Virus record (IMG/VR): IMGVR_UViG_3300030104_000601
Location: 1-26,753 of that record
Length of the DNA: 26,753 nucleotides
Reading direction: 5' to 3' (one strand)
DNA from: a virus
How positions within the stretch are numbered: position 1 is the first letter of the stretch; each line of letters opens with the position of its first letter. Of the stretch, positions 1,995 to 19,708 are shown in pieces. The notes under the pieces are model-generated. The model made no database searches. It was not told where the DNA came from and saw only the letters and a program-made list of their open reading frames with translations. The translations under genes were made by a program, and so were the position numbers.

Positions 1995-2004
1995 TATATT
2001 ATAT
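1995..2004 (+). promoter_or_regulatory. TATATTATAT box 3 nt before the protease ATG
   Basis: An exact TATATTATAT ends three bases before the ATG at 2008, in the 36-bp gap between tape measure and protease. It is one of four copies with exactly this spacing. I read it as a promoter element, possibly giving a leaderless mRNA; a translation signal is the alternative. Confidence 0.5.
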
Positions 2005-2007
2005 CAT

Positions 2008-2619
2008 ATGAAGAAGAAACCAACAAAAATAACAGAACTTGTTATAAGTGAAGAAAACGAAGCACTAGCAATAGATGCAATTTCATTAGTAAGTTCACCA
2101 GCAATAGAAGTAGATTTTATATTTTTCGGTAAAGAAAAAAACAATCTTACATTTGCTAAAGTAGACGAAGAAAAACGTGAGCTTATATCACCAGCGCTTA
2201 TACCACTTAAACAAATATATAGATACGACCCTAATACAGACCAAGAATACTACGTATATTTTAGTAAGGACACTGTAAAAAAAGCAGCTTATAGTTACTT
2301 AAAAAATAACAATCACCACAAAGCTACATACGAACATCAACAAAGAGTAGCGGGTGTTTTAACTGTAGAATCATGGATTAAAGAAGGTGATCAAGACAAG
2401 TCTAAATTATACGGCTACGATTTAAGTGACGGTACATGGTTTGTAAAAATGAAGATTGAAAATGACGAACTTTGGCAAAAAATAAAAGAAGGTGAACTTA
2501 AAGGACTTTCAATAGAAGGTTACTTTGTAGATAAATTAGAAAACATGGGTAAACAATACACTGACGAAGACATAAGAAAAGCCTATAAAGAATTAGTAAA
2601 AGAAGGTAAAATAAAATAA
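2008..2619 (+). CDS. Prohead maturation protease (XkdF / Peptidase S78_2-like)
   Basis: The 203-residue protein resembles the PBSX XkdF-type putative serine protease (Peptidase_S78_2), which trims scaffold and capsid proteins inside the prohead. Visible signatures are ATYEHQ around His110, VESWIKE at 120-126, GTWFVKMKI at 142-150, and KGLSIEGYF at 165-173 with Ser168. His110 and Ser168 are the likely catalytic pair. The length suits a stand-alone protease with no fused scaffold. The next gene encodes an acidic coiled-coil scaffold-like protein and the one after it the capsid protein, the usual protease-scaffold-capsid order. No Shine-Dalgarno precedes the ATG; instead there is a TATATTATAT box three bases upstream. 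Confidence 0.85.
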   Translation: MKKKPTKITELVISEENEALAIDAISLVSSPAIEVDFIFFGKEKNNLTFAKVDEEKRELISPALIPLKQIYRYDPNTDQEYYVYFSKDTVKKAAYSYLKNNNHHKATYEHQQRVAGVLTVESWIKEGDQDKSKLYGYDLSDGTWFVKMKIENDELWQKIKEGELKGLSIEGYFVDKLENMGKQYTDEDIRKAYKELVKEGKIK

Positions 2620-2631
2620 AACTTAAACAAT

Positions 2632-2641
2632 TATATTATAT
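2632..2641 (+). promoter_or_regulatory. TATATTATAT box 19 nt before the scaffold ATG
   Basis: An exact copy of the recurrent box lies in the gap between protease and scaffold genes. It ends 19 bases before the ATG at 2661, the same distance as the near copy before the gene at 14238. If it is a -10-type element, the mRNA leader would be short but not absent. Confidence 0.45.
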
Positions 2642-2660
2642 ATTATAAAAACTAATAACA

Positions 2661-3368
2661 ATGGAACTAAAAACACAAATTTTAAACGCTTTAGGTCTTA
2701 ACAAAGACGAAGAAGTGAAGTTAGAGTACCAAGCTAAACTTATTGACGGTACTATTATTGTTTCTTCTGCAGACGTTTTAGCAGAAGGTAGCGATATATC
2801 AATACTTGCAGAAGATGGTACAACTATGCCATTGCCAGCGGGTTCATACGAAGTAGAAGACGGTACAACTTTCGAAGTAGTAGACGAAGGTATTATTGCT
2901 TCTATAGGTGAAACTGAAGAAGTAGAAGAAGAAGAAGACGAAACAGAAGCTAGAAAAGAAGAAGACGAATACTCTGAAGAACTTTTAGAAGAAGTAGTAG
3001 AACCTTCAGAAGTTACTGAAGAAGTAAGACATCCTAAAAAGATTAAAACTACTGAAGAAGTAGAATTTAACAAAGAAGCAGTTATTGAAGAAATAGGTGC
3101 AGTAATTAAAGAACTATTAACTGAAGTAAGAAACGACATTAGTAGACTTTCTGGTGAGCTTGACGAAATTAAAGGTGTAAACGAAAACCTTGAAATAGAA
3201 AAGGAGACATTATCAGCTCAATTAGAAGAACTATCTAAAGAACCAGCGTCTGATCCTATTACAGTAAATAAGTTTTCTGACGAAAAAACAAAAGAATTAA
3301 CACCAGTAGACTACAGAAACATGACTAGACAAGAAAAATACTGGTACAACATAAATAAAAATAAATAA
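2661..3368 (+). CDS. Scaffold-like acidic coiled-coil protein
   Basis: The 235-residue protein has a small ordered N-terminal domain (residues 1-90, with two similar segments carrying D-G-T motifs), a very acidic low-complexity stretch (about 88-125, runs of Glu) and a predicted coiled coil (about 140-200, heptads around IKELLTEVRNDISRLSGELD). The C-terminus is basic and aromatic (KYWYNINKNK). Position between prohead protease and major capsid protein, acidity and coiled coil all fit an internal scaffold that directs capsid assembly and is then cleaved. The N-terminal 60-90 residues resemble segments found in Bacteroidota phage scaffold or structural proteins, but I cannot name a family. The A-rich leader has no Shine-Dalgarno. 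Confidence 0.65.
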   Translation: MELKTQILNALGLNKDEEVKLEYQAKLIDGTIIVSSADVLAEGSDISILAEDGTTMPLPAGSYEVEDGTTFEVVDEGIIASIGETEEVEEEEDETEARKEEDEYSEELLEEVVEPSEVTEEVRHPKKIKTTEEVEFNKEAVIEEIGAVIKELLTEVRNDISRLSGELDEIKGVNENLEIEKETLSAQLEELSKEPASDPITVNKFSDEKTKELTPVDYRNMTRQEKYWYNINKNK

Positions 3369-3394
3369 TTAATTAACTAAAAAAATTAAAAACG

Positions 3395-4246
3395 ATGGCA
3401 TTAACAATCACGAGTAGCTCGTATGCTGGCAAACATGCAGGACTTTACGTAAATGCGGCTTTAAAAGCGGCAGATAGTTTAGAGTATATGACAGTACGAG
3501 AAAATGTTAATTACAAAGAAGTGATTAACAAGGTAGCAGGATCAAACCTAGTAAAAGACGCAACGTGTGACTTTACTGAAAATTCTGCAACATTAACATT
3601 AACAGAACAAGTATTAGAAGTAGAGCCGTTTCAAATTAATATTGACGTTTGTAAAAAGACTATGTTATCTGATTGGACTTACGATCAACAAGACGACTTT
3701 GTAGCTTATGCTATGACACATTTATCTGATAGTATTGCAGACAGTATTGAATTTAACATCTGGCAGGGTAACACATCTACGTCAGGACAATTTAACGCTT
3801 TATCTGCTTCAGGTATGACTACATCTTCTGCTTCTGCAGCTTATACAGCGGCTAACATTATCGCTAACTTAGGTACTTTAGCAGCTGACATACCAGCGGC
3901 AGTATATGGTAAAGATGATCTATATATCTACATGAATAAGAAGACTTACAGATTTTACATTTCTGCTATTTCTGCTTTATCTGCATTTCCTTTCAATCAC
4001 ATGGGCGAGTACACACCTGAGTTCGAAGGTATCAAAATTGCAGTTTGTTCAGGTGTAGCTGATAACGTAATGTTTGCAGGTCAAAAATCTAACGCATTTT
4101 TCGGCACATCACTTTCTAGTGATTTAACTGAAGTAAAAGTTTTAGATATGTCTGAAATTACAGGAAGTGACGTAGTAAGAATGGTTTGTAGATACACTGC
4201 AGGTGTTCAGGTAGGTGTACCTTCAGACTTCACGAAACAATCGTAA
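3395..4246 (+). CDS. Major capsid protein
   Basis: The 283-residue protein is the best candidate for the major capsid protein, forming the icosahedral shell and presumably of HK97 fold. Support comes from its place right after protease and scaffold, a length normal for such proteins, and its layout: a helical segment (about 105-125, DFVAYAMTHLSDSIADSIE), an A/S/T-rich region at about 137-170, and a C-terminal strand-rich part ending in YTAGVQVGVPSDFTKQ, similar to capsid proteins of flavobacterial phages. Codon use and a clean A-rich leader (TTAAAAACG before ATG) suggest strong expression. There is no separate decoration protein beside it. The HK97 fold is inferred from family resemblance, not shown. 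Confidence 0.8.
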   Translation: MALTITSSSYAGKHAGLYVNAALKAADSLEYMTVRENVNYKEVINKVAGSNLVKDATCDFTENSATLTLTEQVLEVEPFQINIDVCKKTMLSDWTYDQQDDFVAYAMTHLSDSIADSIEFNIWQGNTSTSGQFNALSASGMTTSSASAAYTAANIIANLGTLAADIPAAVYGKDDLYIYMNKKTYRFYISAISALSAFPFNHMGEYTPEFEGIKIAVCSGVADNVMFAGQKSNAFFGTSLSSDLTEVKVLDMSEITGSDVVRMVCRYTAGVQVGVPSDFTKQS

Positions 4247-4277
4247 ATATAAATATTAACTTAAAAACCTAAAAACA

Positions 4278-4841
4278 ATGGCTTGTAATTTAACAAAAGG
4301 ACGTAACATAACATGTAGAGACGGTATTGGTGGTGTAAAAGCTATATACCTTGTACAGCATGATGAACTTACGTCTTTCACAGCAGCAAGTGGTGAAGTT
4401 ACTGATTTAGATTTAGGTTCTGGTGACGATATTTATAAATACATTTTAAAACGTGGTACGGGAAGTGTTACAGAAACTATTAACGCATCTAGCGAAAATG
4501 GTACTGTATTTTACACACATTCTGTAAATATCAAGCTTCACAATTTAACAAAAGAAGATCAAAACGAAATTAAACTTTTAGCACAGCAAAGAATGGTAGT
4601 ATTTGCTGAACTTAACCAGTTAAACAGCACAGGTAAAAACACTATCGTAGCTTGTGGTTTAGATAACGGGTGTGAGTTATCAGCGGGTACATCAGTATCA
4701 GGTGTTGCTCTAGGTGATATGATCGGTTATGATTTTACTTTCGAAGCTCAAGAACCAAACCCTATGCAATTAGTAGCAGATTACACTACAACACCGTTTG
4801 ACAACGGCGCGTTTACATTTAATGAGATAGTACAAAACTAA
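4278..4841 (+). CDS. Probable major tail tube protein
   Basis: The 187-residue protein begins MACNLTKGRNITCRDGIGGV. This is a recognisable start of a protein common in Bacteroidota siphophages that is generally taken as the major tail (tube) protein. The rest is beta-rich, with a central EDQNEIKLLAQQRMVVF helix and strand, as in tube proteins of the gpV/Hcp fold. It lies directly after the capsid gene with a 31-bp A-rich leader and is followed by the strongest terminator in the window, as expected for an abundant virion protein. It is far from the other tail genes. Alternatives are a head decoration or head-tail joining protein. Confidence 0.65.
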   Translation: MACNLTKGRNITCRDGIGGVKAIYLVQHDELTSFTAASGEVTDLDLGSGDDIYKYILKRGTGSVTETINASSENGTVFYTHSVNIKLHNLTKEDQNEIKLLAQQRMVVFAELNQLNSTGKNTIVACGLDNGCELSAGTSVSGVALGDMIGYDFTFEAQEPNPMQLVADYTTTPFDNGAFTFNEIVQN

Positions 4842-4862
4842 ATGTAAATGTTTTATATAAAT

Positions 4863-4892
4863 AAAGGGGGGCATATAGCCTCCCTTTTTTTT
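4863..4892 (+). terminator. Rho-independent terminator after the capsid/tail-tube genes
   Basis: The arms 4863-4872 (AAAGGGGGGC) and 4878-4887 (GCCTCCCTTT) form a 10-bp stem with one G·U pair and an ATATA loop, running into a T tract to 4892. It is the only clear intrinsic terminator I find in the window. It closes the transcript carrying scaffold, capsid and tail tube genes. Confidence 0.92.
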
Positions 4893-4899
4893 AACTTTG
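4892..4899 (+). promoter_or_regulatory. Bacteroidota-type -7 box TAACTTTG
   Basis: TAACTTTG matches the Bacteroidota -7 consensus TAnnTTTG and lies 13 bases before the ATG at 4913, directly on the T tract of the terminator. The upstream -33 position falls in the terminator and shows no clear TTTG. It would restart transcription for the small structural genes, LamG protein and portal. Confidence 0.55.
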
Positions 4900-4912
4900 T
4901 AAAAAATAAACT

Positions 4913-5080
4913 ATGTACAAACTAAAAGATGAATATAAAGGTGTTACGGTTAATAAGACTGGTCGTATGATTATTTTAGATAACGTAAAACCTAACGAAG
5001 TAGAACTATTAGGTGTAGAACACTTCTTTACTAAGACAAAAACAAAGAAAAAACAAACACCACCACCAAGTCAGTTATAA
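4913..5080 (+). CDS. Small 55-residue protein of the structural region
   Basis: This short frame reads MYKLKDEYKGVTVNKTGRMI and continues to a lysine/proline-rich end (KTKTKKKQTPPPSQL). It starts 13 bases after a TAACTTTG box and fills an otherwise empty 277-bp gap. The N-terminal KLKDEYKG..V and the IILDNVKPNEVELL segment look like a small beta domain. Small proteins of this kind often sit between capsid/tail tube and connector genes in Bacteroidota phages, but I do not know the function. Codon use (GAC/GAA, GGT, TTA) matches the neighbours. Confidence 0.75.
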   Translation: MYKLKDEYKGVTVNKTGRMIILDNVKPNEVELLGVEHFFTKTKTKKKQTPPPSQL

Positions 5081-5105
5081 AAATAGAAAATAAAAAGAAC
5101 TTTTT

Positions 5106-5115
5106 TATATTATAT
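5106..5115 (+). promoter_or_regulatory. TATATTATAT box 3 nt before ATG 5119
   Basis: An exact copy of the recurrent box, preceded by a run of T, ends three bases before the ATG at 5119. The position relative to the start is identical to those at 2008, 17397 and 19091. Confidence 0.5.
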
Positions 5116-5118
5116 AGT

Positions 5119-5595
5119 ATGATAACAGGTGTTTATGGTAGTACAATAACGGCATATTTAACTTTAGAAGAAAAAAGAATAGATACAGCTAAGGCAATAT
5201 CTAAAGTACAATATCTTTTTAAGTTTACTAACGATATGACTAAAACAGTTAAGTATTGTTATGCAAGAAAAACTACACATAATGACAGATATGTTAAATG
5301 TGAGTTCATACATAATACAAGTGAAGACCCTTTTACATTTAAAATTAACTTTAAACCTTATGGATTTTGGAAGTATGAAGTTTACGAAGTGACATGGATA
5401 GGTGACGTAAATATTAGTTCAGATACAGCGCCAGATAGCGAAACAGAAACACTATCTGTAGCAGATACTAATGGTGTAGTAAAAGGTAAAGTAGAAGAAG
5501 GTAAAGTATTAATACAAGAAACATCAGGCAGTGAACAAGTGAGATATACACAACATTCAGAAACGACAACAAATTATTTATATACAGATTATTAA
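5119..5595 (+). CDS. Uncharacterised phage structural-region protein
   Basis: The 158-residue protein is beta-rich: residues 1-95 alternate aromatic and charged residues (VQYLFKFTND, FKINFKPYGFWKYEVYEV). After an acidic linker come a short NGVVKGKVEEGKVLIQE segment and a Thr/Tyr-rich end. The domain looks like an immunoglobulin- or beta-sandwich-like virion protein, and similar proteins occur beside tail tube and portal genes in Bacteroidota phages. No catalytic motif is visible. It probably heads a transcript from the box three bases before the start, shared with the two following genes. A head decoration or tail ornament role is possible; the exact role is unknown. Confidence 0.7.
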   Translation: MITGVYGSTITAYLTLEEKRIDTAKAISKVQYLFKFTNDMTKTVKYCYARKTTHNDRYVKCEFIHNTSEDPFTFKINFKPYGFWKYEVYEVTWIGDVNISSDTAPDSETETLSVADTNGVVKGKVEEGKVLIQETSGSEQVRYTQHSETTTNYLYTDY

Positions 5596-5607
5596 AAACA
5601 AAAAATT

Positions 5608-5892
5608 ATGAGTTTAATAGACAATAACAATATACTACTACGTGAACAATTAGGTAAAGGTGACGGTATAGTATTTACTACAGCAAACCAGACTACAAAA
5701 GACTTTTACGCAATACATTTTGTTACTGAAAGTGTAATAGCCTCTATTACTATGGCTAATTTAACAGGTGAAAGTGCATTACATACTACTATACCGGCGG
5801 GTACGGTCATTTTTGGTAGATGTACACAGGTACAACTGACTTCAGGTGTAGCTATAGGGTATACTGAGCATGACGGTAAAACTGGCGAATAA
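5608..5892 (+). CDS. Small beta-rich structural protein
   Basis: The 94-residue protein has the pattern FYAIHFVTESVIASITMANL then TIPAGTVIFGRCTQVQLTSG followed by a terminal aliphatic strand. This motif series (a variable residue block, then 'IPAGT.I.G..T...LTSG') recurs in short Bacteroidota phage virion proteins, possibly trimeric decoration or fibre-head proteins. There are no signal peptide or membrane segments. Its stop overlaps the start of the LamG-like gene (TAATG), so the two are probably translationally coupled. The 12-bp A-rich spacer before it has no Shine-Dalgarno. Function is inferred only from pattern and place. Confidence 0.65.
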   Translation: MSLIDNNNILLREQLGKGDGIVFTTANQTTKDFYAIHFVTESVIASITMANLTGESALHTTIPAGTVIFGRCTQVQLTSGVAIGYTEHDGKTGE

Positions 5893-6623
5893 TGAAACTA
5901 GGACTAGGACTAAGTATAAACAATAGAATAGACGCAGCGTGGACACCAGCTAAACTAGGCACAAACCTTAAAATGTGGCTACGTAAAGATACAGAAATAT
6001 TTGAAGCAGATGATGACTTAGCTGAAGATACAGACAATATTACTAAATGGGGTGATCAGTCAGGTAACGGTAACCACATGCTAGCGAGTAGTAATTATTT
6101 TGATTATGATAGTGCTACAGGTGGTGTAGAAAGTTTAGACAGTACAAATAGTCGTATGTATTTAGCTACAGATGGTTCTAAAAATTTAACCTTTTCAGGT
6201 CAATTTGCATTATATATGAGATGTTCGCTTTCTACAATTTCTTCAGGTGGTAATGATCTATTTGTATATGATAGTGACGCTACAGGTGAAGATTTTTTTA
6301 GGGCTCAATCTACTACAGAAATACGTGCAAAAATAAATAACAGTACAAAAATAGGATTTACACAAAGTACACAATCACTAGATACTTTTTATAATTTTGG
6401 CTTTGAACGTGATGGTAGTAATGTCGTTACTGCATATCGTGACGGTTCATCTTTAACTAAAATAACTAGCGGGAGTTACGAAACAGGGGCTGTGTCAGGT
6501 GATTTTGTACTAGACGCAATCGGTGGACTTTTTGACGGTATTATTAAAGAAGTAGTATGGTGTGATCGTGTACTAACTGCAGACGAGCGTACAAAGCTAG
6601 ATACATATTTAGATAAATTATAA
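5892..6623 (+). CDS. LamG / concanavalin A-like lectin-domain protein
   Basis: The 243-residue protein fits a LamG-like jelly roll: LKMWLRKDTEIF near 26-37, KWGDQSGNGNHM near 52-63 (the W.DQSGNGN motif of such domains), alternating strands, and a closing FDGIIKEVVWCDRVLTADE segment near 213-232, which corresponds to the conserved final strand plus helix. These domains usually bind glycans. In a virion they decorate the capsid or tail and may help the phage hold to host surface polysaccharide. It is coupled to the preceding small structural gene and lies two bases ahead of the portal gene. I see no catalytic glycosidase residues. Confidence 0.75.
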   Translation: MKLGLGLSINNRIDAAWTPAKLGTNLKMWLRKDTEIFEADDDLAEDTDNITKWGDQSGNGNHMLASSNYFDYDSATGGVESLDSTNSRMYLATDGSKNLTFSGQFALYMRCSLSTISSGGNDLFVYDSDATGEDFFRAQSTTEIRAKINNSTKIGFTQSTQSLDTFYNFGFERDGSNVVTAYRDGSSLTKITSGSYETGAVSGDFVLDAIGGLFDGIIKEVVWCDRVLTADERTKLDTYLDKL

Positions 6624-6625
6624 CT

Positions 6626-8737
6626 ATGAAAAAAAAGAAGTTAAAAGTACAAGACAATATTAACAACACAAAACAGCGTTTGTTAAATGTAAACTTAGAT
6701 ACACAGGTGTCACCATTAATACGTGAAGTAATGGGTAAAGACTATATAGAATACGGTACAGAAGACTATCGTAATTTATACCCACAATTTTTAATTGATC
6801 TTTACTACAACAGCTCGACACATGCGGCGATAGTAAATACTACAAGCGACATGATTGCAGGTGAGGGTTTAACAGTAGAAGAAGGCGACAACTTAAATGC
6901 ATACGTTAAATTAAAAAAGTTTTTAGCACATGCAAATAGTAAAGGTGAAAGTTTACACGACATAGTTAAAAAACTATCTTTTGACTTTAAATTACAAGGG
7001 GCGTACGCTTTAAACGTGGTATGGTCAAAGGATCGTACCTCTATATCAGAATTGTATCATATACCAGTAGAACGCATTAGAATGGGCAAACCAGACGTAA
7101 CAGGTAGGGTTAAAGAATACTATATAAGTGCTGATTGGAAACAACCAAGAAAACACAAACCACAAGCAGTACCAGCGTTTAGTTTAACAGATAGAACAAA
7201 CCCTAACGCTATTATATATGACGGTATGTACAGTCCTAACATGCAACTATATAAAACACCAGACTATGCAGCGGCTTGTAATTGGTGTTTAGTAGATCAA
7301 AAAGTAGCAGAATTTCATTTAGCTAATATAGAAAACGGTTTTGCAGGGTCTTACTTTATTAATTTCAGTAATGGAGTACCGACATTTGAAGAACGTAGAG
7401 AAATAGAAAACAGTATAAAAGATAAATTCACAGGTTCAAGTAACGCAGGTAAATTTGTACTTACTTTTAGTGACGATAAAAATAGAACACCAGAAATAAT
7501 ACCTATATCTGTAAGTGACGCAGATAAACAATATTTGGCACTCCAAGAACTTTTAACACAAAACATACTTACGGGTCATAGAATTACGTCACCAATGCTT
7601 TTTGGCATCAAAAACAATACTGGAATCGGTAATAATGCAGACGAAATGAACCAAGCTTACGAAATGTATCTAAATACAGTCGTAAAACCTTATCAGAAGA
7701 ACATATTAAGCTGTTTAAGCAAGTTATTTGAAGTAAACGATATGAACCTACCATTAGAGTTTGTTCAAGGTAAACCAATCACTACAAGATTTACTATAGA
7801 AGACATGAAAGAGGTTATGACGACTAGCGAAATACGTGAAGAACTAGGATTACCACCATTAGAAGAAGGTGTAGAACTAAGTAAAGATGACTTTGCTAAG
7901 GTAGGTAGTATGATTACAGACGGTAAAGAATTACCATTATACGACACTATAGAAGAAGCAGAAGAAGAAGCGTTAAGAATAGGTTGTAAAGGTTACCATG
8001 AACACACACAAGATGGCAAAACATACTATATGCCTTGTGAAAACCATGACCAGATTACAGAATTACAAAAGTGTGACTGTGAAAACCCTAGCAAAGAATG
8101 TGAAAAGGAATGTGACAGATATGAGAAACTAAGTAAAGAAGAAACACCAACATCAGAAGAAATTATAAATTATATTAAAAATCTTACAAAAGAAGATGAG
8201 TATGATTTGATAGATGATTACAATTTATTAGATGAAGAGCAAGCTGAAGATGAAAACCATAACTATGAGTTTGCAGCAAATACAGGTGTAATAAATCCAA
8301 CTGGAAAAGCAGGCAAATCAAATAAAGACAAATCATTATTTAAAATAAGATATGTATATAGAGGCGGTGCACCAAAAGAAACAACAAGAGACTTTTGCAG
8401 ACATATGATGAATAACGAATATACTAGTTTATTTACTCGTGAAGATATTACAGCAATGACAACAGCAAATCCTGAGTTCGGAATTTACAATGTATTTAGA
8501 TACAAAGGTTCGTATAATTGCAGACACTACTGGTTAAGGAGATTGTATGTACTTAAAAAAGCACCAAGAAAAATAACTATAAATGGTAAAGAATATAAAA
8601 AAGGTGATTATCTTCCAAAAGAGTTGAAAAATTATTATCCAAGAAACAAAGGTTATGTGCCTCAAGACGCAGGTGTACCACCTAAAAATTCAGCAGAAAT
8701 GGAGGCAGGAAATATTAATGACAAAGTAGTAAAATAA
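6626..8737 (+). CDS. Portal protein with a long C-terminal extension
   Basis: Residues about 20-430 fit a phage portal (dodecameric vertex ring through which DNA is packaged): early STHAAIVNTTSDMIAGEGL, a middle LYHIPVERIRMGKPD segment, and a helical stem/crown region with QELLTQNILTGHRITSPMLF and the helix before EEREELGLPPLEEG-type residues. Typical portals are 400-550 residues; this one is 703. The extra part holds a His/Cys motif (GYHEHTQDGKTYYMPC at about 452-470), an acidic linker with a four-cysteine cluster, and a separate domain at about 570-650 with RYVYRGG, DFCRHMM, REDI and YNCRHYW. I cannot name that domain; similar blocks occur in head proteins of Bacteroidota phages. It is far from terminase, which is unusual. 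Confidence 0.85.
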   Translation: MKKKKLKVQDNINNTKQRLLNVNLDTQVSPLIREVMGKDYIEYGTEDYRNLYPQFLIDLYYNSSTHAAIVNTTSDMIAGEGLTVEEGDNLNAYVKLKKFLAHANSKGESLHDIVKKLSFDFKLQGAYALNVVWSKDRTSISELYHIPVERIRMGKPDVTGRVKEYYISADWKQPRKHKPQAVPAFSLTDRTNPNAIIYDGMYSPNMQLYKTPDYAAACNWCLVDQKVAEFHLANIENGFAGSYFINFSNGVPTFEERREIENSIKDKFTGSSNAGKFVLTFSDDKNRTPEIIPISVSDADKQYLALQELLTQNILTGHRITSPMLFGIKNNTGIGNNADEMNQAYEMYLNTVVKPYQKNILSCLSKLFEVNDMNLPLEFVQGKPITTRFTIEDMKEVMTTSEIREELGLPPLEEGVELSKDDFAKVGSMITDGKELPLYDTIEEAEEEALRIGCKGYHEHTQDGKTYYMPCENHDQITELQKCDCENPSKECEKECDRYEKLSKEETPTSEEIINYIKNLTKEDEYDLIDDYNLLDEEQAEDENHNYEFAANTGVINPTGKAGKSNKDKSLFKIRYVYRGGAPKETTRDFCRHMMNNEYTSLFTREDITAMTTANPEFGIYNVFRYKGSYNCRHYWLRRLYVLKKAPRKITINGKEYKKGDYLPKELKNYYPRNKGYVPQDAGVPPKNSAEMEAGNINDKVVK

Positions 8738-11072: not shown

Positions 11073-11080
11073 TACATTTG
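11073..11080 (+). promoter_or_regulatory. Early promoter -7 box TACATTTG
   Basis: TACATTTG matches the Bacteroidota -7 box TAnnTTTG, 29 bases before the ATG at 11110 and at the end of the longest gap. A TGTTAATAA repeat lies 15 bp upstream in place of a clear TTTG -33 box. It should drive the replication operon. Confidence 0.65.
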
Positions 11081-12027: not shown

Positions 12028-12028
12028 C

Positions 12029-13543: not shown

Positions 13544-13544
13544 A

Positions 13545-13766: not shown

Positions 13767-13938
13767 AAGTCCTATAGAAAAGTCATGTGAAATAGCTGAC
13801 GAACTTACTAAAGGATTTAAACAGTCTTTAGTTCGTGCAATAGTTTTAACCGCTATAACAAATTTAGACGACCACGATCATAACAGATTATATGAACAGC
13901 TTTTTATAAAAGATATAAATAATAATAAAACAAAATAA
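13750..13938 (+). CDS. Small hypothetical protein
   Basis: The 62-residue protein starts at ATG 13750, with a second ATG two codons later at 13756; either could be used. The body is one predicted helical hairpin (SCEIADELTKGFKQSLVRAIVLTAI, DHNRLYEQLFI) and a poly-Asn/Lys tail. I see no known family. It lies between an acidic small gene and an HTH gene in the early operon. Confidence 0.5.
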   Translation: MKMKTKSPIEKSCEIADELTKGFKQSLVRAIVLTAITNLDDHDHNRLYEQLFIKDINNNKTK

Positions 13939-13940
13939 AA

Positions 13941-14177: not shown

Positions 14178-14208
14178 TGTTAATAAATAAAAATAAATCG
14201 TTCATTTT

Positions 14209-14218
14209 TATATTATAA
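14209..14218 (+). promoter_or_regulatory. Near copy of the TATATTATAT box before the NinG-like gene
   Basis: TATATTATAA (one mismatch at the last base) ends 19 bases before the GTG start at 14238, the same distance as the exact copy before 2661. A TGTTAATAA repeat at 14178-14186 lies upstream as it does at the early promoter. It probably starts the second early/middle transcript. Confidence 0.5.
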
Positions 14219-14237
14219 TATATGTAAACTTGTAAAT

Positions 14238-14636
14238 GTGAAAACAATAAGTAAACTAAAAAAAGAACTTGACAAATGGTTTAGTCTTTATATACGTTTA
14301 CGAAATTCAACACCGCAAGGCATGGTACAATGTTGGACTTGTGGAGCTTCAAAACACTATAAAAAAATGCATGCAGGTCACTTTATGAGTAGAAAACATT
14401 TATCTACAAGGTGGCACGAAGATAACGTACAGGTACAGTGTCCTAAATGCAATTTATTCGGACAAGGTGAACAATATACTTTCGGTAAACTATTAGACGT
14501 GAGAATAAAAGAAGGCTTAGCAGACAGTTTAGAAGAACTTAGTAAGACAACTGTAAAAATTATGCGTCACGAATACAAAGAACTAATTACTAAATACAAA
14601 CAAAAAGTAAAACATGAAGAAGCCTGTTTGTCTTAG
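14238..14636 (+). CDS. NinG/Rap-like recombination protein
   Basis: The 132-residue protein matches the lambda NinG (Rap) family of Holliday-junction/recombination nucleases. It has CWTCG (C32, C35), MHAGHFMSR (H45, H48), RWHEDNVQVQCPKCN (C68, C71, N72) and a G-rich segment, then a C-terminal helix region. The two Cys pairs make a zinc site around an HNH-like core. The start is GTG at 14238; the ATG at 14236 is out of frame and meets TGA at once. It heads the second early block after a 60-bp gap with promoter signals. NinG normally boosts recombination and repair of phage DNA. Its end overlaps the next gene by 23 bases. Confidence 0.85.
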   Translation: MKTISKLKKELDKWFSLYIRLRNSTPQGMVQCWTCGASKHYKKMHAGHFMSRKHLSTRWHEDNVQVQCPKCNLFGQGEQYTFGKLLDVRIKEGLADSLEELSKTTVKIMRHEYKELITKYKQKVKHEEACLS

Positions 14637-14976
14637 TATACAACACGAACTATTGTTACATGATTATTTAGAAGCAATAGATTTATACGTAGAAGATGTT
14701 ACAAGCACAAAAGAAAAGTACGAAGATTTTTTAGAAATAAGCAACATAATAATAGAACACCACAATAATTACCAGTCTAATAATTTAGGTCAAGCAAACT
14801 ATAGTGACTTTATGTCTATAATACCTACACATTTTTCATGTATGGTAAACGGTTATTTGACAGGTTTAGAAAATAAAAGAAATAGAAGTAAGGTACGATT
14901 ATACAAACATGTAATAAGTGAAAAGTCGCATGAGTTAATAGAAGACATATCTAAACTACAAACAATATATGAATAA
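14614..14976 (+). CDS. Hypothetical helical protein
   Basis: The 120-residue protein is polar and helical, with HELLLHDYLEAIDLYVED and EKYEDFLEISNIIIEHHNNY in the first half and GYLTGLENKRNRSKVRLYKH in the second. I find no catalytic or metal motif and no TM segment. The gene overlaps the NinG-like gene by 23 bases and the sigma-like gene by 8, so it is made from the same transcript. Function unknown. Confidence 0.55.
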   Translation: MKKPVCLSIQHELLLHDYLEAIDLYVEDVTSTKEKYEDFLEISNIIIEHHNNYQSNNLGQANYSDFMSIIPTHFSCMVNGYLTGLENKRNRSKVRLYKHVISEKSHELIEDISKLQTIYE

Positions 14977-15526
14977 AATATATAAGATAATAGCAGACCT
15001 TAGAGAAAAGTTTGTGACTATGACTTACGGTTTAACTACAGACAAAAACGAAATAGACGAAGTAGTACAAGAACTTATGTTATACTTTTTACAGATGAAC
15101 CCTGAAACACTAAAAAACATATATAAAAAAGACGGTAAAAAAGGTATTATAAGCTACGGCGCTGTGGTAATTAGAAGGTCACTACAAAGTAAACACAGTC
15201 CTTATTATTATAAGTATAAAAAATATTATACACGTTTAGACGACAGCTGTAATATTTCTAGAGAAACTATTGACGGTGAAATAATACCAGCTAAATACAT
15301 ATATAATTTACCACAGGAAGAACAAGACAAAAAACATATAAAACTACAAAACATAGATAAAGAAATAAACACTATGTACTGGTATGATCGTGAACTATTT
15401 AAGTTATATTATTATGAAGACAATACATTAGATAGTTTAGCAAAAAAAACAGGTATAGGTAGAAACAGTTTGTTTAACACAATAGACAATGTCAGAAACA
15501 TATTAAAAGCAAAGTTAAATGAATAA
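14969..15526 (+). CDS. Sigma factor-like protein
   Basis: The 185-residue protein looks like a small sigma-70-type factor. Residues 1-80 (LREKFVTMTYGLTTDKNEIDEVVQELMLYFL in part, then SYGAVVIRRSLQSKHSPYYYK) correspond in pattern to region 2. Residues 135-182 (LFKLYYYEDNTLDSLAKKTG, then a recognition helix GRNSLFNTIDNVRNILK) correspond to the region 4 helix-turn-helix. Proteins of this type are found in flavobacterial phages. It would direct host RNA polymerase to phage promoters, and the TATATTATAT boxes are its natural candidates, but that link is inference. A terminase-small-like or general HTH protein is less likely. It overlaps its neighbours by 8 bases on each side. Confidence 0.65.
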   Translation: MNKIYKIIADLREKFVTMTYGLTTDKNEIDEVVQELMLYFLQMNPETLKNIYKKDGKKGIISYGAVVIRRSLQSKHSPYYYKYKKYYTRLDDSCNISRETIDGEIIPAKYIYNLPQEEQDKKHIKLQNIDKEINTMYWYDRELFKLYYYEDNTLDSLAKKTGIGRNSLFNTIDNVRNILKAKLNE

Positions 15527-15926
15527 GTTTTTAGTAGACAAAAAAACCTATAAAGAACGATTAGACATATGTAGAGGTTGTAAACATTATTTTAAATATA
15601 CAGGTAATTGTGGTATTTGCGGTTGCTTTATGAGAATAAAAGCAAGTATGTCAATTATGGAGTGTGCAGACGATCCAAAAAAATGGATAGCGACGCAAGA
15701 ATACGAAACACCAAAACAGTTACCTAAACATTTAATAAAAGAAGTAATAGAAATAATGCCAGATTTAAAAAATGGTAAAATAAAAGATCACGAAACAAAA
15801 AAGAAATTAATTGAATTGTATAATACTATATATGACTTTAACTACAAAGTAACAACAAATTGTGCTTCGTGTTTAAGTACAGTGTATAATGGAATAAAAA
15901 AAGTATATGACGAAAACAAAAAGTAA
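15519..15926 (+). CDS. Cysteine-rich zinc-ribbon protein (DUF6171-like)
   Basis: The 135-residue protein has an N-terminal zinc cluster: ERLDICRGC (C18, C21), then GNCGICGCFM (C31, C34, C36), then C49 in MECADDPKKW. This arrangement is found in a small family seen in many phages. The C-terminal half is separate: an LPKHLIKEVIEIMPDLKNGK helix, a basic helix and a final NCASC pair near 114-118. It may bind nucleic acid or the transcription apparatus. Function is unproved. It is coupled to the sigma-like gene by an overlap, and that association suggests a role in gene control. Confidence 0.6.
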   Translation: MNKFLVDKKTYKERLDICRGCKHYFKYTGNCGICGCFMRIKASMSIMECADDPKKWIATQEYETPKQLPKHLIKEVIEIMPDLKNGKIKDHETKKKLIELYNTIYDFNYKVTTNCASCLSTVYNGIKKVYDENKK

Positions 15927-16260
15927 ATATTATTACGATACAGAAAGAAACATTGACATTAACTGTAAAAATGAAATAAACCCAAAAATGTTAATGACTA
16001 AAGAACAGCTAGGACTGAATAAAACTAAAACAGGTGGATTGCATAATGATAGTAGAGTACCTAAATATTATAAAGGCAAAGAAGGCTATGAAGCTAGAAA
16101 AGTTTGTGACAATTTTGATTTGTCGTATCATTGCGGAACAGCAGTTACATATATATTAAGAGCATATAAAAAACATGATAAACCAATAGAATGCTTAAAG
16201 AAAGCAATAGCACATTTAGAATTTGAAATAGATAAATATGACGAAAATAATAAGAGGTAA
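15907..16260 (+). CDS. DUF3310-domain protein
   Basis: Residues about 45-110 fit the DUF3310 family: SRVPKYYKGKEGYEARKVC, then DNFDLSYHCGTAVTYILRAY, then IECLKKAIAHLEFEID. These match the pattern 'HYk.g..e.......f.l....GNAvKYilRa..Kg...eDL.KA..yle'. In many phages this domain stands alone or is fused to nucleotide-metabolism proteins, and its exact activity is not known. In this copy, the usual His of the first motif is Tyr, and Asn of G-N-A is Thr (C-G-T-A-V). The gene overlaps both neighbours by about 20 bases. Confidence 0.78.
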   Translation: MTKTKSKYYYDTERNIDINCKNEINPKMLMTKEQLGLNKTKTGGLHNDSRVPKYYKGKEGYEARKVCDNFDLSYHCGTAVTYILRAYKKHDKPIECLKKAIAHLEFEIDKYDENNKR

Positions 16261-16465
16261 AAAAATAGGTAGACACAAAGAAACTAAATACTTGAGTATA
16301 TTTCCTGACTATGACGATAGAGACTTAAGCAAAAAGATAATGAAAATACCTAAAATAATAAAGCATGATATTAGCTGGGAACTAATTACGGGTATGAAGT
16401 ACAAAACAGAACGTCAAGAAGTTCAATATTTAAGAACTAAACACACACCAGAAAACCCTGTATAA
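16238..16465 (+). CDS. Small hypothetical protein, first of a related pair
   Basis: The 75-residue protein is basic. Residues 38-58 (KIIKHDISWELITGMKYKTE) are clearly similar to residues 4-20 of the next, shorter gene product (IKNDISYELMFGVQKLN). This suggests a tandem duplication. There is no known domain. Its start overlaps the DUF3310 gene by 23 bases. Confidence 0.55.
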   Translation: MTKIIRGKKIGRHKETKYLSIFPDYDDRDLSKKIMKIPKIIKHDISWELITGMKYKTERQEVQYLRTKHTPENPV

Positions 16466-16615
16466 ATGAAAACAATAAAAAACGATATAAGCTACGAACT
16501 AATGTTTGGTGTGCAAAAGTTAAATAAAAAACCAATAGTTAAATATACTGAAAATAAGTACACAAAAAACATTATGAAATTCTATAAACTAAATGAAAAG
16601 AAGAAAACTAAATAG
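16466..16615 (+). CDS. 49-residue protein, second of the related pair
   Basis: ATG 16466 comes directly after the stop of the preceding gene, with no bases between. The 49-codon frame reads MKTIKNDISYELMFGVQKLN and then a basic end (KFYKLNEKKKTK). The segment IKNDISYELMFG matches IKHDISWELITG in the upstream gene, which supports a real protein rather than a chance frame. Function unknown. Confidence 0.6.
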   Translation: MKTIKNDISYELMFGVQKLNKKPIVKYTENKYTKNIMKFYKLNEKKKTK

Positions 16616-16718
16616 TAAGAACCCTAGATATTTACCAAAAGAAAAAATGAAGAAACAAAAAAAGGTATTAATGAAAGAAACAAAATTATTTAAAATGTAT
16701 TTTTGTTATGAACTATAG
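16593..16718 (+). CDS. 41-residue basic micro-protein
   Basis: The frame starts MKRRKLNSKNPRYLPKEKMK and ends CYEL. It overlaps the upstream gene by 23 bases and the HNH gene by 11, the same type of overlap seen between real genes here, and it fills the gap. It is very Lys-rich; composition alone could make such a frame in A-rich DNA, so it is uncertain. Confidence 0.4.
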   Translation: MKRRKLNSKNPRYLPKEKMKKQKKVLMKETKLFKMYFCYEL

Positions 16719-16719
16719 A
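16705..16719 (+). repeat. 15-bp direct repeat GTTATGAACTATAGA, copy 1
   Basis: This sequence covers the start codon of the HNH gene and the stop of the micro-ORF before it. The same 15 bases occur at 20429-20443 over the start of another gene. In both, the upstream micro-ORF ends Y-E-L-stop and the downstream protein starts M-N-Y-R. Confidence 0.6.
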
Positions 16720-16923
16720 CAACTTTACGAAAAACACATAGAGAAAATACCTAAAGGTTGGCACGTACACCATATAGATTTTAACCACAATAATAATAGT
16801 TTAGATAATTTAATAGCAGTGCCAGAAAAAGTACACACGGTAATTCATCAGTATGGATATATGCCAAAAGACGAAATACAAAATTTAATACAGATATATA
16901 AAGAAAATGAAATATTATTGTAA
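16708..16923 (+). CDS. Mini HNH-type endonuclease domain protein
   Basis: The 71-residue protein is an HNH core: IPKGWHVHHIDFNHNNNSLDNLIAVPEKVHTV (14-45), with H21, H22, D24, N26, N34 and H43 in the places of the ββα-metal site. It lacks the extra DNA-binding (AP2 or zinc) domains of homing endonucleases. HNH proteins encoded near terminase take part in DNA packaging in several phages; this one is six hundred bases upstream of the small terminase gene. It could instead be a remnant of a free-standing homing enzyme. The start overlaps a micro-ORF. Confidence 0.75.
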   Translation: MNYRQLYEKHIEKIPKGWHVHHIDFNHNNNSLDNLIAVPEKVHTVIHQYGYMPKDEIQNLIQIYKENEILL

Positions 16924-17149
16924 TATATGTGGTAACACAAAAGAATTGTTTAAGTTTAAACTAACATTTGACGAAACATTAAATAAATTAGTAAATAAAG
17001 AAGCTATGTGTTGTGATAAAGAAATGGAATGTACAACAAAAGATGACGGTATACCGACTATCATACGAAACGAAATGAAACATAGTTACAGTGAAAGTAA
17101 AAAACATGTAGACAGAATAATGAAAGGTAACAATGCAAAAGAATTATAG
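16907..17149 (+). CDS. Small zinc-ribbon-like protein
   Basis: The 80-residue protein begins MKYYCNICGNTKELFKF, with C5-x2-C8, and has AMCCDKEMEC (C35, C36, C42), a possible zinc ribbon. A basic C-terminal half follows with NEMKHSYSESKKHVDRIM. The pattern occurs in short phage proteins of unknown role. It overlaps the HNH gene by 17 bases and the next gene by 17. Confidence 0.55.
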   Translation: MKYYCNICGNTKELFKFKLTFDETLNKLVNKEAMCCDKEMECTTKDDGIPTIIRNEMKHSYSESKKHVDRIMKGNNAKEL

Positions 17150-17375
17150 AACCGAAGCACAAAATAAATATTACTTTAAATGTATTGTAATACCGTTGGG
17201 TAAGTTCTTAGGTTACCATAAGTACGAAATGCACGAAGAACTAAAGAGACTATTTATAGAAGATACAAGTAAAGAACTTAATACAGTCGATTTTAACGAC
17301 TATTGTGAACAAATACGTATCTGGTCTTATAATGAATTTAATATTGTCTTAGAAGAACCAGAAACAAACAAATAA
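17133..17375 (+). CDS. Small phage protein of a common unknown family
   Basis: The 80-residue protein has the pattern RTEAQNKYYFKCIVIPLGKF, then GYHKYEMHEELKRLF, then TVDFNDYCEQIRIWSYNEF. The arrangement 'RT..QN.YYw..v...a..lG....E.H..lk..f' with 'st..F..yi..i..wa...' is widespread in phages and is at times compared with NinB-type ssDNA-binding proteins. The specific role is not established. It is the last gene before the terminase transcript and ends 21 bases before its ATG. Confidence 0.65.
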   Translation: MQKNYRTEAQNKYYFKCIVIPLGKFLGYHKYEMHEELKRLFIEDTSKELNTVDFNDYCEQIRIWSYNEFNIVLEEPETNK

Positions 17376-17383
17376 GAAGTTTT

Positions 17384-17393
17384 TATATTATAT
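17384..17393 (+). promoter_or_regulatory. TATATTATAT box 3 nt before the small terminase ATG
   Basis: An exact copy after a T run ends three bases before ATG 17397, identical in spacing to those at 2008, 5119 and 19091. It probably starts the packaging transcript. Confidence 0.5.
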
Positions 17394-17396
17394 ACT

Positions 17397-17753
17397 ATGG
17401 AAAACGAACAAAAACGAACACAAAGCAATAAAAAGAAACTAATAGAAGCACTAGAAAAGTCATTAGGTATTGTAACAGAAGCGTGTGAGAAAGCACAACT
17501 AAGTAGAACACAGTTTTACAAATGGTACAAAGAAGACAAAGACTTTAAGAAACAGGTAGATAGTATAGAAGGTAAATTTATAGACTTTGCAGAAACACAC
17601 TTAAAAGAACAAATTAAAAACAATAACACACAAGCTACTATATTCTATTTAAAGACACGTGGACGTAAAAGAGGTTACGGTGATAGTCTTGATATTACAA
17701 GTGGTGAAGAACCTATTACAATAAACGTAAAGATTAATGGCGTTGAATATTGA
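17397..17753 (+). CDS. Terminase small subunit
   Basis: The 118-residue protein has an N-terminal homeodomain-like helix-turn-helix (KKKLIEALEKSLGIVTEACE, then AQLSRTQFYKWYKEDKDFKK), a central helix (IDFAETHLKEQIKNNNTQATI) and a short ending ITINVKINGVEY. It resembles phBC6A51-type terminase small subunits, which bind the packaging start site and load DNA onto the motor. The C-terminal part matches 'ATIFYLKTRGRKRGYG', typical for the family. Its end overlaps the large subunit start by 17 bases, the usual pairing. Whether it defines pac or cos is not visible. Confidence 0.85.
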   Translation: MENEQKRTQSNKKKLIEALEKSLGIVTEACEKAQLSRTQFYKWYKEDKDFKKQVDSIEGKFIDFAETHLKEQIKNNNTQATIFYLKTRGRKRGYGDSLDITSGEEPITINVKINGVEY

Positions 17754-19053
17754 TGCTAAGTTTACTAAGACACAAGAACAAGCATTAGAATACTTATTTG
17801 ACAATAAGACTACTGAAGTATTATACGGCGGTGCAGCGGGTGGTGGTAAATCATTTATCGGTTGTGCATGGATAATACTATTTTGTTTAAAATATCCTAA
17901 GACAAGATACTTAATAGGTCGTAGTAAATTAGACACATTAAAAAAGACGACTTTAAATACATTATTTGAAGTATGTAGTTTGTGGGGCTTGAAGTCAAGT
18001 GACCATTATAATTTTAATGGTAGTACAAATGTAATTACTTTTATGAATGGTAGTGAGGTTATATTAAAAGATTTATTCTTATACCCTTCAGACAGAAACT
18101 TCGACAGTCTAGGATCATTAGAAATTACAGCAGCATTTATAGACGAAGCTAATCAAATAACAGAAAAGGCTAAAAACATAGTAGCGTCACGTATAAGATA
18201 CAAGCTTGACGAACATAAATTAATACCTAAAATATTATTAACATGTAACCCTTCTAAAAACTGGGTATATACAGAGTTTTATAGACCAGCTAAAACAAAT
18301 ACATTACAATCATATAAAAAATTCATACAGTCATTAGTAGACGATAACGAATATATAAGCATGCATTATAAAGGACAATTAGAGAAACTAGACAGACTTA
18401 GTAAAGAACGTCTGTTATATGGTAACTGGGAGTATGACGCATCAGACGATAACTTAATAGAGTATAACAGCATATTAAATCTATTTAATCAAAACGGTGT
18501 AGAAGGTCAGAAATATATTACTTGTGACGTAGCAAGGTTCGGTAATGATAAATCAGTAGTAATGTTATGGTCAGGTAAAACAGTTACAAATATTAAAACA
18601 TTTGACACTAACACAATAACAGAACTAGCTGACTACATAAAGACATTACAACAAAAAGAAGCTGTAAGTTTAAATAACATTATAGTAGACGAAGACGGTG
18701 TAGGTGGAGGTGTAAAAGATATAATAAGGTGTAAAGGGTTTGTCAATAATAGTAGACCATTAAAAAATGAGAATTACCAAAACTTAAAAACACAATGTTA
18801 TTATAAATTATCTGACGAAATAAATAAAGGTCAGATAGGTATTAACACAGATAATATCACAGTACGACAAAACATAATAGAAGAACTAGAACAAGTAAGA
18901 AGTAAAGATCAAGACAAAGATACTAAACTAAGAATAGTAGACAAAGACACAGTAAAAGCAATTATAGGTAGGTCACCTGACTATGCCGATTGTTTAGCTA
19001 TGCGTATGTATTATGAAATAGATAGTAACTTCGGTAAATACTACATACAGTAA
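17737..19053 (+). CDS. terL: Terminase large subunit
   Basis: The 438-residue protein is the DNA-packaging motor and nuclease. The ATPase domain has Walker A GGAAGGGKS (31-39) and Walker B AAFIDEA (132-138), with the following TCNPSKNW (169-176) as the coupling motif. The nuclease domain has acidic residues of the RNase H-like fold: D264 in TCDVARFGND, D318 in IVDEDGVGGG, and D415/D418 in SPDYADCL. The domain order and length are normal. It docks to the portal, whose gene lies in a quite different place (6626). Codon use is like that of the neighbours. A 37-bp gap with the recurrent box separates it from the tail genes. Confidence 0.96.
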   Translation: MALNIDAKFTKTQEQALEYLFDNKTTEVLYGGAAGGGKSFIGCAWIILFCLKYPKTRYLIGRSKLDTLKKTTLNTLFEVCSLWGLKSSDHYNFNGSTNVITFMNGSEVILKDLFLYPSDRNFDSLGSLEITAAFIDEANQITEKAKNIVASRIRYKLDEHKLIPKILLTCNPSKNWVYTEFYRPAKTNTLQSYKKFIQSLVDDNEYISMHYKGQLEKLDRLSKERLLYGNWEYDASDDNLIEYNSILNLFNQNGVEGQKYITCDVARFGNDKSVVMLWSGKTVTNIKTFDTNTITELADYIKTLQQKEAVSLNNIIVDEDGVGGGVKDIIRCKGFVNNSRPLKNENYQNLKTQCYYKLSDEINKGQIGINTDNITVRQNIIEELEQVRSKDQDKDTKLRIVDKDTVKAIIGRSPDYADCLAMRMYYEIDSNFGKYYIQ

Positions 19054-19077
19054 ATTTTAAACTAAATATCAATTTAT

Positions 19078-19087
19078 TATATTATAT
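19078..19087 (+). promoter_or_regulatory. TATATTATAT box 3 nt before the tail chaperone ATG
   Basis: An exact copy ends three bases before ATG 19091 in the 37-bp gap after terminase. It probably opens the tail transcript, which may run to the end of the window and, by the circular reading, on into the tape measure gene. Confidence 0.5.
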
Positions 19088-19090
19088 ATT

Positions 19091-19708
19091 ATGAAAGTAA
19101 ATGTCATAGAAAACAAAACTACTAAAACATACAACGTGCCAGCTACATGGAACGAATTAACATTAGGTCGTTATATGCGTATTATGAAAGTTTTAAAAGA
19201 CGAAGAAGAAACGTCAGACATAGAAAGACTTGTTAGAATAATTAACTGTTTGTCTAAAATACCTAAGAAACACATTTATAGTTTAGAAGTTAATAGTTTA
19301 AAAAAATTAGGTAAACATATAACAAGCTTTTTAGAAAGTGAACCTAATGATGAGTTAGAACACTTTGTTACTATAGAAGATATAGAATACGGTTTTCATC
19401 CTAAATTATTTGATATGACATTAGGCGAGTTTGTAGACTTAGAAACATATATGAAAGACATAGACAATAACATGCATAATATCATGTCTATATTATACAG
19501 ACCAGTAACACAGAAAGACGAAGAAAATAAATATTTAATTGAAGAATACGAGCCTAGCGAAGAACGGGCAAACCTGTTTAAAAAACATTTAACAGTAAGG
19601 GAGTTTAACGGGGCTTCGGTTTTTTTTTCGGATTTAGAAAGACAACTTTCGAACAATTTGCTCAGGTCTTCAATACAGAAATTGAAGAAGAAGAAGAAAA
19701 AAACATAG
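19091..19708 (+). CDS. Tail assembly chaperone, short (G-like) form
   Basis: The 205-residue unshifted product resembles Bacteroidota phage tail chaperones: NVPATWNELTLGRYMRIMKV, EHFVTIEDIEYGFHPKLFDM, TLGEFVDLETYMKD, then MSILYRPVTQKDEENKYLIE, and NGASVFFSDLERQL near the end. It should bind the tape measure protein during tail assembly. The last part (residues 180-205) becomes Lys-rich (KLKKKKKKT), with rarer codons (TCG, TTG, CTC, AGG) than the neighbours. This suggests that the frame after residue 179 is the less selected one. A T9 run at 19620-19628 permits the -1 shift to the longer form. Confidence 0.8.
   Translation: MKVNVIENKTTKTYNVPATWNELTLGRYMRIMKVLKDEEETSDIERLVRIINCLSKIPKKHIYSLEVNSLKKLGKHITSFLESEPNDELEHFVTIEDIEYGFHPKLFDMTLGEFVDLETYMKDIDNNMHNIMSILYRPVTQKDEENKYLIEEYEPSEERANLFKKHLTVREFNGASVFFSDLERQLSNNLLRSSIQKLKKKKKKT

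Follow-up and report, generated by a model that had tools for sequence, protein, structure and literature searches.

The stretch of DNA analysed here, positions 1 to 26,753 of the IMG/VR virus record IMGVR_UViG_3300030104_000601, is 26,753 nucleotides (nt) long with a G+C content of about 32%, and is referred to below as the window. It carries a short AT-rich word, TATATTATAT, ahead of five of its genes, and it encodes a 185-amino-acid protein that resembles sigma factors of the extracytoplasmic function (ECF) type. Here we describe the word as a candidate promoter element and the protein as its candidate reader, and we consider where transcription would start relative to the genes behind it.

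The repeated box and the genes behind it

Exact copies of TATATTATAT occur five times on the + strand of the window (1995-2004, 2632-2641, 5106-5115, 17384-17393 and 19078-19087) and not at all on its - strand. Four of them stop 3 nt short of an ATG (2008, 5119, 17397 and 19091), just as an earlier reading of the letters alone (the sequence-only reading) had described; that reading listed these four and overlooked the copy at 2632-2641, which stands 19 nt, counted from the box end, before ATG 2661. All five are intergenic, lying within the 813 bases outside the open reading frames (ORFs) taken as genes, and coding DNA holds no equal copies. The expectation of the sequence-only reading, less than one chance copy per strand, agrees with the null models: 2000 first-order Markov copies of the window have a mean of 0.27 per one strand and none reaches five, the word followed by NNNATG has a mean of 0.002 in such copies, and a Markov null trained on intergenic bases gives a mean of 0.064, with five copies reached in 0 of 5000. 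When one mismatch is allowed on both strands, a check it had named, 39 matches are found against 16.8 ± 5.0 expected (the maximum of 100 shuffles is 36), many of them being self-overlaps at the same sites.

Genes are named here by the position of their start codon. Gene 2008 encodes an XkdF-type prohead protease (Pfam PF14550) and gene 17397 has matches to small-terminase PHROGs (terS), in agreement with the protease and terminase blocks to which they had been assigned; the tail block proposed at gene 19091 (g19091), which follows terL, corresponds to a single weak tail-protein match (E 0.007), and for gene 5119 (g5119), which had been called small structural, profile searches give no product. 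Gene 2661 is labelled scaffold-like from its place and from weak matches. The protease-gene box is also found in the relatives L009 and L012 and is missing in most of the 10 protease homologs compared. Coordinates of all features are collected in Table 1.

A two-part motif across the phage family and its distance to the ATG

Relatives were collected by a TerL search of IMG/VR, of which the best 80 of 472 loci were used. Among named phages, Flavobacterium phage 11b (53%) and Cellulophaga phi10:1 (50%) come closest by TerL, and for this reason the host of the window phage is probably a flavobacterium; the family, a large one of uncultured phages, probably infects Flavobacteriia. The box upstream of g19091 homologs is kept across this family (77 sequences including the window, 38 of them non-redundant), with a 13-nt consensus, TTTCTATTATATA, that carries 16.8 bits at the g19091 sites; TATATTATAT is a clade variant, the window clade having A where the family has C (TTTATATTATATA versus TTTCTATTATATA). 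We define the gap as the number of nt between the end of the 13-mer box and the ATG, such that TATATTATAT at 3 nt from an ATG corresponds to gap 2. At the 38 non-redundant g19091 sites the gap is 2 in 21, 3 in two, 4 in seven, 5 in six, and 6 and 7 in one each, and a second element, TAAACTAA, starts exactly 18 nt before the box in 33.

The same arrangement is seen at 216 dissimilar sites from all gene classes, each defined by the exact core TTHTATTATATW ahead of a family ORF. The upstream element reads [T/C]AAA[C/T].AAA and is followed by TTTCTATTATATA at a fixed spacing, with exact [T/C]AAA[C/T] at -17 from the box in 101 sites, at -18 in 65, elsewhere in 33 and absent from 17. Where the gap is at least 9, this element keeps its distance to the box while its distance to the ATG varies. 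With the gap-2 position taken as +1, the box extends from -15 to -3 and the upstream element begins at -32 or -33.

Across 82 loci and the window, training sites included, all 109 + strand hits of at least 16 bits fall within 40 nt before an ORF, 81 of them at gap 2, and the five such hits on the - strand stand before none; the box at its characteristic spacing, which the sequence-only reading had suggested looking for in related phages, thus recurs family-wide. At 12 bits an ORF follows 137 of 147 + strand hits versus 0 of 77 on the - strand, and among + strand controls six column-permuted motifs gave 0-18 hits before an ORF out of 12-38 and the reversed motif 6 of 19. Sites of at least 11 bits with an ORF behind them number 150, of which 81 belong to the training class (g19091), and the remainder include 30 ParB-like, 16 terS (window included), three protease, two scaffold and two g5119 sites. 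Elsewhere in the same contigs (20 stretches), an ORF stands behind 28 of 40 sites of at least 13 bits; the ten sites of maximal score there stand before g5119 homologs in nine cases (eight at gap 2, one at gap 4) and before a scaffold homolog, at gap 19, in the tenth. Flavobacterium phage 11b, Cellulophaga phi10:1 (first 50,000 of 53,664 bases) and Polaribacter P12002L gave no hit of at least 13 bits ahead of an ORF; the last has one 9.5-bit site at gap 3.

We note that a ParB-like gene with its own candidate promoter precedes terS in many relatives (L042:7908, L078:8101 and 28 other sites), unlike the window clade, in which the candidate promoter stands directly before terS. At locus L083 the g19091 promoter reads TTTATATAATATA, and the sigma-like protein encoded there is among the more divergent (about 50% identity, Thr76). 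In L269:1686 and in L277, on contigs that match few family proteins, a perfect box at gap 3 precedes a metallophosphatase gene.

The position of the ATG relative to the box varies in one direction. At the 216 dissimilar sites the gap is 2 in 97, 3-8 in 67, 11-37 in 48 (39 of them scaffold) and below 2 in four; by class, 39 of 41 scaffold sites have gaps of 11-37, and those of terS, ParB, g5119 and g19091 are mostly 2-7. Scans of IMG/VR on DNA alone covered TTTCTATTATATA followed by ATG at gaps 0, 1, 2, 3, 4 and 6. Hits that open a family ORF number 2 of 39 at gap 1 (both of 68 amino acids and without the upstream element), 39 of 112 at gap 3 and 14 of 67 at gap 6 and, among the matches listed, 0 of 121 at gap 0, 100 of 121 at gap 2 and 98 of 118 at gap 4 (118 of 120 stretches examined). 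ORFs outside the family are opened by four hits at gap 1, 17 at gap 3 and 11 at gap 6 and, again among the matches listed, by four at gap 0, one at gap 2 and ten at gap 4. In these sequences the limit is one-sided, with the ATG practically never nearer than gap 2 and free to lie further away, as would be expected if transcription started at the gap-2 position, because an ATG upstream of the start would be absent from the mRNA.

A pyrimidine-purine step recurs at this same position. T precedes the ATG in 97 of 97 gap-2 sites, 51 of 67 sites with gaps of 3-8 retain the step at index 14/15, and where the gap is at least 9 the step is present in 24 of 48 sites, the adjacent steps having 6 and 3, and index 15, the predicted start, is a purine in 45 of 48. 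From the one-sided limit and the recurrence of the step we predict that most late operons are transcribed from the A of their ATG, and hence that their mRNAs would be leaderless. If the start were instead displaced by one or a few nt, the transcripts would have leaders of 1-6 nt or would begin inside the codon and be near-leaderless. Gaps of 3-7 at 65 of the 216 sites would indeed give very short leaders under the same model, but the sharp limit at gap 2 and the peak of the step at index 14/15 both point to the A of the ATG for gap-2 sites, and we regard a displaced start as rather unlikely. The distribution of gaps is similar to the two-peaked pattern of leader lengths in Lactococcus cremoris, for which PMC10986495 describes no leaders of 4-14 nt.

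A sigma-like protein as candidate reader of the box

The ORF at 14969-15526 matches the PHROG 'RNA polymerase sigma factor' with an E value of 8e-5. Its AlphaFold2 model (pLDDT 82, pTM 0.47) has two helical domains, and among the PDB fold matches listed the titles name sigma factors or initiation complexes, the top ones mostly of ECF type; model residues 120-185 superpose on region 4 of sigmaE with 1.8 Å over 66 residues (2h27_D, Z 10.4). The predicted layout of the 185-amino-acid protein, sigma2-like plus sigma4-like, is that of ECF-type factors, which have about 160-200 residues and no sigma1 or sigma3. In each of the 57 loci that reach from ninG to terL, the gene is found between these two. 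It is present in the window and in all 14 of the longest contigs behind the TerL loci, and 14 of these 15 contigs have at least one box of at least 13 bits before an ORF, mostly two to five, although such co-presence is in itself weak evidence, owing to shared descent.

Among named phages (50,697 records) no match to the protein was found at E 1e-5. Distant sigma-like hits (24-31% identity) in L277 (31%), L349, L370 and L377, each with one perfect box, were set aside because the picture they give is inconsistent. Two contigs with the sigma gene, L086 and L087, are in metagenome-assembled genomes labelled Pseudooceanicola and Euryarchaeota, and are probably misbinned phage contigs.

Residue 76 of the protein covaries with position -12 of the box. 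In 79 distinct sigma/box pairs, Arg at residue 76 accompanies C at -12 in 68 of 68, and Asn, Tyr, His or Thr accompanies A in 11 of 11; with duplicates kept the counts are 73/73 and 13/13, from 88 loci of which two with a one-base-shorter box were left out. The window protein has His76, and that of L037, for example, Arg76. Residue and base each change three times, in parallel, on a sigma tree built without column 76. The pair ranks first of 1807 column pairs; that ranking read L079 and L085 in another box register, where they appear as exceptions, and the covariation counts use the upstream-T register. Contacts between Arg and the G of a C:G pair are common. In the AlphaFold2 model residue 76 falls where the sigma2-like domain ends, in the loop that joins helices 45-73 and 78-86; it is through loop L3 and nearby positions of the sigma2 domain that ECF factors read the -10 element (PMC6411747, PMC6372665). 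Because residue 76 tracks box position -12, we propose the phage protein as the reader of the box, and the covariation points to a reading of position -12 via residue 76.

The promoter might instead be read by the primary or an alternative sigma factor of the host, with the phage protein in some other role and the starts still leaderless. The layout of the box resembles that of host promoters, which have AT-rich motifs near -18 and -28 (PMC6847099), and the family assignment of the phage protein is weak; but the consensus TTTCTATTATATA is without the TTTG end of the host's TAHHTTTG, a word that occurs elsewhere in the same genomes, the covariation at residue 76 needs the phage protein, and 100 of the 101 ORF-opening gap-2 hits, among the matches listed, are of this phage family. 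We consider recognition by a host factor alone quite improbable.

Beside a -10-type element with leaderless mRNA, the sequence-only reading had entertained a translation-start signal, that is, a Kozak-like AT-rich word on mRNA that has no Shine-Dalgarno (SD) sequence. Bacteroidota, which lack SD, favour A at -3 (PMC6847099), and the box places an A there in 95 of 97 gap-2 sites, but at gaps of 3-8 this base is A in only 12 of 67 sites, and at gaps of at least 9 in 40 of 48, as if upstream bases mattered only with a real leader. The box sequence is unchanged 11-37 nt before scaffold homologs and its gap ranges over 2-37, which is not the fixed distance to the ATG of an SD or Kozak-like signal; moreover, the second element holds a fixed distance to the box, not to the ATG, the box stands at only a few genes per genome, and sigma residue 76 covaries with it. 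A signal of this kind is very improbable, and it is the -10-type, leaderless branch that comparison supports, through the conservation of the box, the fixed upstream spacing, the one-sided ATG limit, the start step, the presence of the sigma gene and the tracking of the box by residue 76. An origin by chance or composition in the AT-rich gaps of an AT-rich phage, which the low G+C content of the window would favour, can be dismissed in view of the Markov nulls, the column-permuted and reversed motifs and the scans at other spacings.

Proposed late transcription and its relation to known systems

We think it likely that the boxes are the -10-side half of a phage late promoter, that the phage sigma reads them, and that most of the late mRNAs are leaderless. 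Host polymerase would make early RNA and the sigma operon, and RNA polymerase (presumably that of the host) carrying the phage ECF-like sigma would open a few late promoters, marked in the window by the five exact boxes. Each would consist of [T/C]AAA[C/T].AAA at about -33 to -25 and TTTCTATTATATA (TTTATATTATATA in the window clade) at -15 to -3, followed by N, T and a start on A. This start would coincide with the A of the ATG in most late operons, giving leaderless mRNAs, and the same promoter 11-37 nt upstream of the scaffold operon would give it a short leader. The RNA 5' ends, the binding of sigma, the operons, the late timing and the translation of leaderless messages are parts of this scheme that we infer from the comparisons.

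Table 1. Features of the window that bear on the proposed promoters (all positions are those of the window)
Feature	Position	Strand	Sequence	Basis and reading
Late-promoter box before gene 2008	1993..2005	+	TTTATATTATATC	11.7 bits, weakest of five; predicted start A of ATG 2008, leaderless
Upstream (-32 region) element of 1993 promoter	1976..1984	+	GAAACGAAA	Sequence and family register
Late-promoter box before scaffold-like gene	2630..2642	+	ATTATATTATATA	Predicted start 2645, 16-nt leader to ATG 2661
Upstream element of 2630 promoter	2613..2621	+	AAAATAAAA	Sequence and family register
Late-promoter box before gene 5119	5104..5116	+	TTTATATTATATA	Predicted start A of ATG 5119, leaderless; boxes at homologs too
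Upstream element of 5104 promoter	5086..5094	+	GAAAATAAA	Sequence and family register
Late-promoter box before terS	17382..17394	+	TTTATATTATATA	Predicted start A of ATG 17397, leaderless
Upstream element of 17382 promoter	17365..17372	+	CAAACAAA	Sequence and family register
Late-promoter box before gene after terL	19076..19088	+	ATTATATTATATA	Predicted start A of ATG 19091, leaderless; box here family-wide
Upstream element of 19076 promoter	19058..19066	+	TAAACTAAA	Sequence and family register
ECF-like sigma factor, 185 amino acids, proposed box reader	14969..15526	+		PHROG match, predicted fold, covariation; residue 76 codon 15194-15196
Gene just upstream of sigma	14614..14976	+		Homologs with TAHHTTTG 3-4 nt before ATG in 44/68 loci
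Host-type -7 element	11073..11080	+	TACATTTG	Long gap before ATG 11110 (genes taken as early), predicted leadered
Terminator-like hairpin with T-run, then host-type element (4892-4899)	4865..4899	+	TAACTTTG (host-type element)	Hairpin judged by eye

Transcripts of F. johnsoniae start 4-5 nt downstream of the TAHHTTTG -7 element (PMC6847099). In the 44 of 68 loci in which this word precedes the ATG of the gene upstream of sigma, it does so by 3 nt in 9 and by 4 nt in 35, and because of this placement the sigma operon there would, by the host promoter rule, be leaderless too. The window and its nearest relatives are without TAHHTTTG at leaderless distance before the sigma operon.

The hairpin and host-type element at 4865-4899 likely form a boundary between transcription units. 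In relatives, 20 of 55 g5119 boxes have a terminator-like hairpin at most 160 nt upstream; none was found before the other box classes (scaffold 0/40, g19091 0/69, ParB 0/16, terS 0/10) or in control windows before internal tail genes (0/555). At 14207-14240, before ninG, there is a weaker box (9.8 bits) with an upstream element in register, at which the gap-2 ATG is followed immediately by a stop; the ninG ORF begins at GTG 14238, a start kept in L008, L012 and L015. The site was rejected as a further late promoter, the box being not kept in those three relatives.

Several observations weigh against the proposal of a phage-sigma-read, leaderless late promoter. The window protein scores below the Pfam cut-off for region 4 (14.7 versus 24.1 bits); among 52 sigma homologs, 33 match Sigma70_r4 and 34 match UPF0122 (E up to 0.1), and 41 match phrog_36 'transcriptional regulator' versus 34 for the sigma family phrog_1740 (E up to 0.01). 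A sequence search of the PDB returns only UPF0122 (E 0.0067), no PDB fold match passes E 1e-3 (the Foldseek best is 1.2e-3) and TM scores are low, and Z values of the size of the best one, 10.9 to E. coli sigmaE over 151 residues, can be frequent among helical proteins. In the pieces of contig G006 (L083) no site of at least 13 bits precedes an ORF, and there is only a variant box. Four of the 216 dissimilar sites have a gap below 2, of which two lie at -1 and are probably overlapping registers, one is a scaffold site at 0, and one is a g4278 match at 1 that looks spurious. Half of the sites with a gap of at least 9 have no pyrimidine at index 14, and gap 2 puts the last A of the box at -3, so translation could add to the preference for that gap. 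TAHHTTTG is 2.5 times denser between genes than within, versus 1.7-2.0 for two control words, and with so weak an overall enrichment the point made for the sigma operon rests on the exact place of the word. Finally, leaderless translation in such hosts is assumed, since most F. johnsoniae transcripts are leadered, with a leader of more than 10 nt in 87% (PMC6847099).

Parts of this arrangement are familiar from other systems. Like the ECF (group 4) sigma factors, among them E. coli sigmaE and M. tuberculosis SigL and SigH, the protein is of similar size, has predicted sigma2-like and sigma4-like domains and is associated with a two-part promoter; unlike them, it is phage-encoded and in the window too distant to pass Pfam, its promoter elements are AT-rich, and the starts would fall on the ATG. 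In phage T4 the late genes have an AT-rich -10-type box to which a sigma-like protein, gp55, redirects the polymerase of the host, and the mRNAs are, to our knowledge, leadered. The T4 late promoter TATAAATA is not known to have an upstream element, whereas the box described here differs in sequence, has the ATG at its predicted start and is accompanied by a fixed upstream element, with an exact match at -17/-18 in 166 of the 216 dissimilar sites.

Bacterial genes with TA-like leaderless signals have a -10-like element some 12 bp ahead of their start codon, which is taken as a sign that they are leaderless (Zheng et al. 2011, PMC3160421). The gap-2 sites, where TATTAT starts 11 nt ahead of the ATG, fit this placement; here, in contrast, the signal belongs to a single phage regulon, which has a longer motif of its own and seemingly also its own sigma. 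The AR9 early promoter, AAATATATATTAT-6N-G, likewise has a TATTAT core, placed 6 nt upstream of the start, but phiKZ and AR9 promoters are read by phage multisubunit polymerases and AR9 leaders measure 26-491 nt, although phage transcripts are described in the same source as often leaderless (PMC5312081). The primary-sigma elements of Bacteroidota, TTTG or TAHHTTTG (PMC6847099), stand before presumed early genes here and before the sigma operon in 44 of 68 loci, in contrast to the late box, which has another sequence and no TTTG end. In the literature, as covered by the titles and abstract openings listed, with most subscription journals and bioRxiv outside the scope, we found no account of the motif or of leaderless late promoters in Bacteroidota phages. 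The ECF sigma, the late promoter and the leaderless gene are each known; what appears to be new is that they come together in a leaderless late regulon.

The window and its relatives thus offer, for phages known from sequence only, a matched set: a sigma factor with its promoter, a residue and a base in apparent mutual recognition, and a predicted start. They point to leaderless translation as routine in Bacteroidota phages, in hosts where SD is absent and the transcripts of the studied species are mostly leadered, and the motif followed by ATG may serve as a DNA marker of the phage family in metagenomes. As leaderless and leadered genes would share one promoter within a single genome, the effect of a leader could be tested directly. 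For the family as a whole, which is widespread, we consider it probable that the late programme is nearly all leaderless by way of its own ECF-like sigma, whose residue 76 reads position -12, that a leader is found mainly at the scaffold/capsid genes, that in most members the sigma operon too is leaderless, from a host-type promoter, and that the presence of a leader controls late dosage. If this is true, the dosage of late proteins in hosts without Shine-Dalgarno sequences would have a control built into it, the presence or absence of a leader.

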